DNA of 33,080 bases from Chthoniobacterales bacterium (lineage in GTDB: Bacteria; Verrucomicrobiota; Verrucomicrobiia; Chthoniobacterales; UBA10450), in assembly GCA_013820755.1 (NCBI GenBank), contig JACDHZ010000009.1:1-33080 (forward strand), given 5' to 3'. A program made the translations under genes and the position numbers. This document shows positions 18,608 to 21,696 of this stretch, one piece after another. The notes beneath the pieces are model-generated. The model was not told the DNA's origin and did no database searches. It worked only from the letters and a program-made list of their open reading frames with translations. How positions within the stretch are numbered: the stretch's first letter is position 1; each line of letters starts with the position of its first letter.

Positions 18608-20041
18608 TTAGTAGCGGTAGTGCTCGGACTTGTAGGGTCCGTCGACGGGTACGCCGAGATACTCGGACTGCTTCTTGGTGAGAGTCGTGAGCTTCACGCC
18701 GATCTTCTCGAGGTGCAGACGCGCGACTTCTTCGTCGAGCTTCTTCGGCAGGATGTAAACGCCAGGCTTATACTTGTCCTTGCCGGACCAAAGGTCGAGC
18801 TGCGCGAGGACCTGGTTGCTGAACGAGTTCGACATCACGAATGAAGGATGGCCTGTGGCGCAACCAAGATTCACGAGACGGCCTTCGGCGAGCATGAAGA
18901 CCTCGTGGCCGTCTTCGAAGGTGTACTTATCGACCTGCGGTTTGATGTTCGTCCGCTTCACACCCTTGGTGGTGTTGAGAAGATCGACCTGAATCTCGTT
19001 GTCGAAGTGGCCGATGTTACAAACGACGGCCTGGTTCTTCATCTTCGACATGTGATCGAAGGTGATGATGTCGACGTTCCCCGTCGTCGTGACATAGATG
19101 TCGCCGCGGCCCAACGTGTCTTCGATGGTAGTCACTTCGTAGCCTTCCATCGCGGCCTGGAGCGCATTGATCGGATCGATCTCGGTGATGATGACGCGCG
19201 CGCCCTGGCCGCGGAGTGATTGCGCGCAGCCTTTGCCGACGTCGCCGTAGCCGCAAACAACCGCGACTTTGCCGGAGATCATGACGTCGAGCGCGCGGTT
19301 CAAGCCGTCGACTAACGAGTGGCGGCAGCCATAGAGGTTGTCGAACTTGGACTTCGTCGCGGTATCGTTCACGTTGATCGCCGGGACGAGCAGCTTGCCC
19401 TTATCGAGCATCTGATAGAGGCGATGCACGCCGGTGGTTGTCTCTTCTGAGACGCCACGCCAATCCTTCACGACTCCATGCCAGCGGAAGGGATCCTGCG
19501 CTTTGATTTCGCGCAACGCGTCTTTGATGACTTCCTCTTCCGCGTTGCTCGCTTCGGTGTCGATCCAGTCGCTGCCCTCTTCGAACTCGTAGCCTTTGTG
19601 GATGAATAGCGTCACGTCGCCGCCATCATCGACGACCATCTGCGGGCCTTTGCCGCCCGGAAACGAGAGCGCCTGGTCGGTGCACCACCAATATTCCTCC
19701 AGTGACTCGCCTTTCCATGCGAACACCGGCACGCCCGCTTTCGCAATCGCGGCCGCGGCGTGGTCCTGCGTCGAGAAGATGTTGCACGAGCACCAGCGAA
19801 CATCGGCGCCAAGTTCGACCAGCGTTTCGATCAACACCGCGGTCTGAATCGTCATGTGCAGCGAGCCAGTGATGCGGACATCCTGAAGCGGCTTCGAGGC
19901 TGCGTATTTTTTGCGGATGGACATGAGCCCGGGCATTTCCTGCTCGGCGATGTCGATTTCGCGGCGGCCGAAATCGGCCAGGCTGATGTCGGCGACTTTG
20001 TAGTCGTTTGTCTCTGTTTTAGTGATGGTTTGGGTGCTCAT
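18608..20041 (-). CDS. ahcY: Adenosylhomocysteinase (SAH hydrolase)
   Basis: Splits S-adenosylhomocysteine into homocysteine and adenosine, relieving product inhibition of methyltransferases. It has 477 residues, normal for bacterial forms with the inserted segment. Landmarks are [38 protein letters not shown], the NAD-binding loop [52 protein letters not shown], and the C-terminal KSEHYRY whose Lys and Tyr reach the NAD of the partner subunit. Its ATG overlaps the stop of the GxxExxY gene (ATGA), so its translation may depend on that gene. A strong terminator follows. Confidence 0.98.
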
Positions 20042-20466
20042 AATGTTATTTCCTGAAGGTTGTCCGCAGATTGCGCAGATTGCCGCAGATTTTCGGAGAG
20101 GGTTCGGACGGCTCGTTTAAACTCCAAACTTCGCCCGCCGAAATTGAGAAGCAGACCACGTTCGTAGCTGGTCGCTTTCAGCTCGTTGAGAAGCTGCGCG
20201 TCATCGGCGCTCGTCAGCTTTGCGATTGCTTTGGTCTCAACGAGGAAATTGTCGAAACAGACGAAATCTGCTCGATAGGCACACGTCAGGAGCTTTCCTT
20301 TGTATCGGATCGGAAGCGCGACTTCCGCTTTGTATGGAACCCCCCGTTCTTGGAACTCAAGCGCCAGAGCCGTCTGATAGACAAGCTCAAGAAAACCACC
20401 GCCAAGCTCGCGATGAACTTCCATCGCAGCTCCGATAATCGCGTGGCTCTGGGGATCCTTCTCCAT
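20038..20466 (-). CDS. GxxExxY protein (PD-(D/E)XK nuclease-like fold)
   Basis: About 142 residues from the ATG at 20466 (the track uses a TTG at 20481 that falls inside an inverted repeat). The namesake motif is GFLELVY within [20 protein letters not shown]. The nuclease-like core is [18 protein letters not shown] (D then ExK), followed by [20 protein letters not shown], the usual ending. Family members are widespread and of unknown function. Here the gene sits between metK and ahcY, overlaps ahcY by four bases, and lies wholly inside a 439-base cassette bounded by inverted repeats. The left repeat encodes its extra C-terminal residues [13 protein letters not shown]. That points to a mobile gene and not to an original member of the methionine cycle. 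Confidence 0.93.
20057..20081 (+). repeat. Left inverted repeat of the GxxExxY cassette
   Basis: Begins AGGTTGTCCGCAGATTGCGC and continues CAGATT; a third CCGCAGATT unit follows at once. It lies 16 bases from the ahcY start codon and inside the 3' coding end of the GxxExxY gene. It matches the reverse complement of 20470-20495 at 24 of 26 aligned positions. Confidence 0.88.
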
Positions 20467-20469
20467 TAA

Positions 20470-20493
20470 AATCTGCGTCAATCTGCGGTCAAC

Positions 20494-20495
<2 letters not shown>
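20470..20495 (-). repeat. Right inverted repeat of the GxxExxY cassette
   Basis: Read on the minus strand it begins AGGTTGACCGCAGATTGACG and continues CAGATT. It starts inside the metK stop codon (20494-20496) and ends four bases before the GxxExxY ATG. Confidence 0.88.

Positions 20496-21696
<1,201 letters not shown>

Follow-up and report, generated by a model that had tools for sequence, protein, structure and literature searches.

A one-gene mobile cassette with mirrored tandem-unit arms around a GxxExxY gene in the metK–ahcY gap of a Chthoniobacterales bacterium

The junction between metK and ahcY in a Chthoniobacterales genome raises the question of what a small gene flanked by inverted repeats is doing between two operon genes, and whether it could have brought itself there. 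The original prediction, made from the window (the whole stretch of 33,080 nucleotides that was analysed), held that gene and repeats form a compact mobile unit that inserts between the genes of an operon without breaking them and is possibly self-mobilising. The parts are located as follows:

18608–20041, minus strand: ahcY, the host gene downstream of the cassette.
20038–20466, minus strand: the GxxExxY gene (TIGR04256 / PF13366 PDDEXK_3), with its ATG at 20466 and a TGA that overlaps the ahcY ATG.
20057–20495, minus strand: the cassette with both of its arms, 439 bases in all; its ends are backed by same-type cassettes at unrelated sites.
20057–20093, minus strand: the 3′ arm, with its core at 20057–20081, which doubles as code for the protein's C-terminal residues.
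20065–20072, 20074–20081 and 20084–20091: the three CGCAGATT units of the 3′ arm, at spacings of 9 and 10.
20470–20495, minus strand: the 5′ arm (gene sense), with a 2-base overlap with the metK stop.
20480–20487 and 20470–20477 (plus-strand coordinates): the two inverted CGCAGATT units of the 5′ arm.
20494–21696, minus strand: metK, the host gene upstream of the cassette, searched for in relatives with tblastn.

The core of the 3′ arm and the reverse complement of 20470–20495 align as AGGTTGACCGCAGATTGACGCAGATT / AGGTTGTCCGCAGATTG-CGCAGATT in 26 columns, of which one is a mismatch and one a gap, and the match at 24 of 26 positions that had been claimed for them was borne out by an SW score of 19.5, above all of the 103 control pairs taken from further out (≤12.5); arm pairs drawn across loci had a median score of 8. 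The right-hand repeat does begin within the metK stop codon (20494–20496), its end at 20470 adjoins the GxxExxY start (ATG at 20466–20464), and ahcY is coupled to the gene via an ATGA overlap (ATG at 20041–20039, TGA at 20040–20038), all as had been described, whereas the distance from the left-hand repeat to the ahcY ATG, given earlier as 16 bases, is actually 15. The statement that the arm codes for the last residues of the protein holds for the window cassette and part of the family, but not for most of the family. Absent from the earlier account was the point that the arms are made of tandem units.

The GxxExxY protein, of ~142 residues, scored 130.5 bits against TIGR04256 (cut-off 35) and 121.7 bits against PF13366 (cut-off 22). 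When 15 diverse members were compared, G25, E28, Y31, R66, D68, E78, K80, Q92 and N109 were invariant, and these residues match a putative D..ExK core of the PD-(D/E)XK type. The nuclease-like fold is a prediction taken solely from Pfam; no PDB relative was found by sequence search, and an AlphaFold model built from six sequences reached a mean pLDDT of 48.7, too poor for its Foldseek matches to carry any meaning. The PDDEXK_3 gene is the single ORF of the cassette, in which no transposase or recombinase was found (a match to a Tc5 fragment lay below the cut-off, with an E of 0.05). A phage origin of the gene was considered and rejected, there being no match among phages and one distant locus in viral contigs. 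Elsewhere, a 284-residue open frame with two GxxExxY matches was seen (L277, G128:C17:13393-14139), possibly a double-domain form.

GxxExxY genes occur in more than half of the sampled Verrucomicrobiota genomes and in other phyla; in the window's own genome (3.0 Mb, 316 contigs), a single TIGR04256 copy was found. The arms were surveyed at 115 GxxExxY loci (the window's own, those of relatives and four GTDB records) by comparing the 150 bases upstream of each gene with the reverse complement of the 200 bases downstream. The median arm score was 20.5, whereas the medians were 8.0 when arms of separate loci were paired and 8.5 (maximum 12.5) in sequence further out; 90% of the loci lay above the 99th percentile of this further-out null. 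Inverted arms at related genes, which a mobile unit would lead one to expect, were also present at 25 of 29 further loci of a phylum-wide sample and in three plasmid records from other phyla, those of Bernardetia, Sphingomonas (in the fabD / fabG gap) and Bacteroides. Each arm has 2–3 tandem units, with a period of 9 being the commonest in a range of 8–10. About 10% of the 115 loci were without clear arms, and none were seen at the distant GxxExxY genes of Persicobacter, Gemmatirosa, Fusobacteria and Prevotella, i.e., arms are dispensable for the persistence of the gene. Gene-less arms of the CGCAGATT type, solo or decayed, were also observed in the window's own genome (G000) on three contigs other than that of the cassette, at C59:3582, C113:2173, C113:4830 and C223:6544 (L003, L007, L005, L008); one of them adjoins a remnant resembling the GxxExxY C-terminus.

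Does the unit move? Between same-type cassettes at unrelated sites, similarity spanned the cassette between the outer limits of its two arms and stopped there, so that the boundaries coincided with the arms, and this stopping of similarity at unrelated sites implies that the unit moves. Relative to the arms, similarity ended at 0/0 and 0/0 in the pair L035/L069, at +4/+4 and +1/+1 in L077/L113, and at −3/−3 and −3/−3 in L030/L049, and L057/L065 and L098/L122 were further unrelated-site pairs bounded in this way. At metK–ahcY itself, relatives had an intact GxxExxY cassette, a decayed one (165 bases in G048, with the arms still visible), an S23/IVP cassette, S23 remnants, solo arms or gene-less hairpins, and the junction was empty in G020, G029, G012, G033 and others. 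The gene-less relatives that were checked thus revealed the anticipated empty site as a short, armless spacer with 4–22 bases from stop to start, and others keep decayed copies with arms. At a second site, the cassette is present in G066 and missing from G090, where the host genes overlap as ATGA; an empty site for a further locus, L043, was not found among its near relatives. The empty/filled pairs are too diverged for footprints to show, and no target-site duplication was found in 38 site clusters, in which the longest direct repeat averaged 3.74 as against 3.47 in the null. Orthologous copies are frequently found at a shared site, the cassette thus being inherited in many cases, and its presence at the same site in most close relatives indicates that movement is old or rare. 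The starred branches of the metK tree force at least five changes each for GxxExxY and S23, in a weakly resolved tree in which gain and loss are indistinguishable. With its arm-bounded blocks and its empty and filled sites, the compact mobile unit landing between operon genes is well supported: the cassette is gained and lost, and it is a real, widespread one-gene mobile unit. The three conditions proposed beforehand for rejecting the prediction were checked, and none of them spoke against it.

Three other arrangements were seen alongside. In a genome of the same genus (G003, L153), ~400 bases at metK–ahcY hold an apparent HicB/HicA-type pair, an assignment made by eye and solely from the translation, and no cassette. 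L091 (G066) and L119 (G082) share the cassette and the left flank, and their right flanks are unrelated from the right arm on, which marks a rearrangement point. Two loci at metK–ahcY, L187 (G078) and L179 (G079), are gene-less, MITE-like hairpins with GxxExxY-type (CACCAAG) and S23-type (GGATGAA) arms.

The GxxExxY gene is under purifying selection, with a pN/pS of 0.18 among orthologues at metK–ahcY, measured at a pS of 0.78, i.e., with synonymous sites near saturation. Such selection, together with long residence at one site, would suit an ordinary, non-mobile host gene that regulates itself through operator sites repeated at either end, a view that is highly improbable, being largely refuted by the arm-to-arm blocks at unrelated sites, the empty sites and the swap for a different cassette at metK–ahcY. 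Every bit as improbable is a nuclease cassette of benefit to the host (in repair, defence or addiction) that spreads via fitter cells and uses its arms for occasional transfer. The low pN/pS at saturating synonymous divergence and the presence of GxxExxY above the family cut-off in 80 of 98 relatives accord with it, but there were zero matches among PADLOC defence models and PHROGs, the cassette has repeatedly decayed or been lost at metK–ahcY, and the nuclease of a mobile element would likewise be under purifying selection.

The cassette lies in the sense orientation, in a short gap after a stop codon. Independent GxxExxY sites in tandem gene pairs were 16:1 sense and S23 cassettes in such pairs 13:0; the distance from the upstream stop codon to the left arm had a median of 2 bases, and commonly <25 bases separate the right arm from the start codon that follows. 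This placement bias may reflect selection for expression within the operon rather than targeting.

If the unit moves, what moves it? A single genome can contain several mutually unrelated arm motifs, and where two of its proteins are dissimilar, so are their arms. Across GxxExxY cassettes, the similarity of the arms was correlated with the identity of the proteins, with a Mantel r of 0.546 for pairs without shared neighbouring genes (null from 2000 permutations: sd 0.017, maximum 0.085); the correlation was 0.516 between different families and 0.606 for S23 cassettes, the latter with shared sites included. The arms are thus specific to the clade of the protein, and the period of their units differs between the protein families (8–10 for GxxExxY and 7 for S23). 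That several unrelated motifs exist per genome and that the motif tracks the protein argues that the arms are read by the cassette's own protein and not by a shared transposase, for which the ends would have to be alike. On the simplest reading, each protein would recognise its own arms; co-inheritance of a linked unit yields the same correlation, yet by itself leaves the match between period and family unexplained. That the gene and arms are passengers which a transposase from another locus moves in trans, in the manner of a gene-carrying MITE, appears rather unlikely. Gene-less or internally deleted copies (L186, L187, L179 and those of G224), whose arms persist or spread without an intact gene, are in its favor; the unrelated motifs within one genome, the dependence of period on protein family and the lack of target-site duplication count against it. 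In G224, three cassettes of 88–94% identity on contigs C31, C50 and C59 (L267, L270, L273) have both arms and the same internal GxxExxY deletion, which hints at a spread of deleted derivatives, with the proviso that the repeat extends ~100 bases beyond the right arm and that this larger repeat may be what moves. Support for self-mobilisation is indirect, coming from the tracking of the protein by the arm motif, and no target duplication was found.

The closest known thing to the GxxExxY cassette is the rRNA IVS. The IVS in the 23S rRNA of Coxiella burnetii is ~430 nt long, carries an S23p/IVP ORF and has a 28-bp terminal stem, with one mismatch and one bulge, that is cut by RNase III; IVSs are sporadic and have been called selfish (PMC4990558). 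The cassette, likewise sporadic, is nearly equal in size, with one small ORF and inverted repeats that would close a stem (26 bp, one mismatch, one gap). Unlike the IVS, it is found in an operon gap (metK / ahcY) and not in rRNA, its ORF is predicted to be of the PD-(D/E)XK type and not an S23p four-helix bundle (only GxxExxY/PDDEXK_3 scored above cut-off), and its arms are made of tandem units. An Rfam search of the cassette gave zero matches.

This likeness leads to another explanation, that of an IVS-like RNA element whose arms pair in the transcript, where RNase III frees the message of the gene and RNA pairing maintains the mirror symmetry. Besides the Coxiella precedent and the sense orientation in operons, it can draw on the sense strand, which folds into an arm-closed stem with a z of −4.6, and on the arms at orthologous sites, which change together: 128 of 197 double arm changes were mirrored, where 50 double changes of any kind were expected. 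Mutual copying of the arms was tried as a candidate and rejected, the unit-specific columns matching at 0.85 within a cassette and at 0.76 against arms of the same class at other sites; given the latter value, most of the match within a cassette is conservation at the level of the motif class. Selection for RNA pairing should favor G.U-compatible arm mismatches, but 79 were compatible and 85 incompatible (p 0.71), and pairing leaves the tandem units, the family-specific period and the protein-tracking motifs unexplained. As a replacement for mobility, the RNA element is unlikely; IVS-like RNA processing may operate alongside it. Taken together, the lack of a target duplication and of a G.U bias means that the cassette is not accounted for by a classical transposon or by selection on an RNA stem.

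The best current reading is therefore of a cassette that would move itself, and a probability of about 60% is given to a one-gene mobile cassette in which a PD-(D/E)XK-type gene lies between mirrored tandem-unit arms and is moved, we infer, by its own protein. The GxxExxY protein would bind the units that are repeated in both arms of its cassette and draw the cassette ends together, which would account for the several units per arm and for their mirror symmetry. It would then cleave at the arms, by which the cassette is released or copied, and host repair would seal it into another gene junction. The cassette leaves little space for a separate promoter and would be expressed as part of the operon transcript; this would explain both the sense bias and the coupling of stop and start codons.

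Outside rRNA, the S23/IVP (TIGR02436) cassettes form a parallel type of element that repeats this design around another protein and with units of 7 bases. They occupy metK–ahcY in G019, G035, G053, G032, G077, G092, G075 and G094 (L172, L201, L176, L193, L191, L210, L212 and L177), and their units match at 72% at a lag of 7 and 71% at a lag of 14. They share genomes, junctions, size, mirrored tandem-unit arms and sense orientation with the GxxExxY cassettes, and differ in their unrelated four-helix-bundle protein and in the period of 7 versus 8–10. They look like the missing relatives of the IVSs. In L193, two different S23-type right arms were seen in tandem, as if one cassette had landed beside or inside another.

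Among other known elements, insertion sequences and MITEs resemble the cassette in their terminal inverted repeats, multiple sites and internally deleted derivatives, but the cassette fails the test for an insertion sequence, since it has neither a transposase nor a detectable target duplication; its arms, moreover, vary within one genome. REP/REPIN elements with RAYT have short palindromic units tied to a small enzyme gene, with many identical extragenic copies per genome; palindromic units and a small enzyme gene are common to both, whereas the cassettes number one or few per genome, with many motif types and a different enzyme family. No literature linking GxxExxY to inverted repeats or mobility was found in a search that left preprints and most subscription journals outside. 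For each known kind that was tested, the one-gene cassette lacks a defining trait, and it is apparently undescribed; were the rRNA IVSs placed in one class with it, it would be a variant of them.

A broader view, held tentatively and at somewhat less than even odds, is that GxxExxY proteins are the engines of a new, minimal self-mobile class of ~450-base cassettes that enter operon stop/start gaps without a transposase, with S23/IVP as a second, convergent engine and the rRNA IVSs as a special case. GxxExxY and S23 genes are widely annotated without a function, and two large hypothetical families would gain a role if this were true. The origin of the rRNA IVSs would then be framed as S23 cassettes that landed in rRNA, a transposase-free route by which a nuclease moves its own gene would become directly testable, and the clade-by-clade change of the arm motif would provide a natural series for protein–DNA co-evolution.
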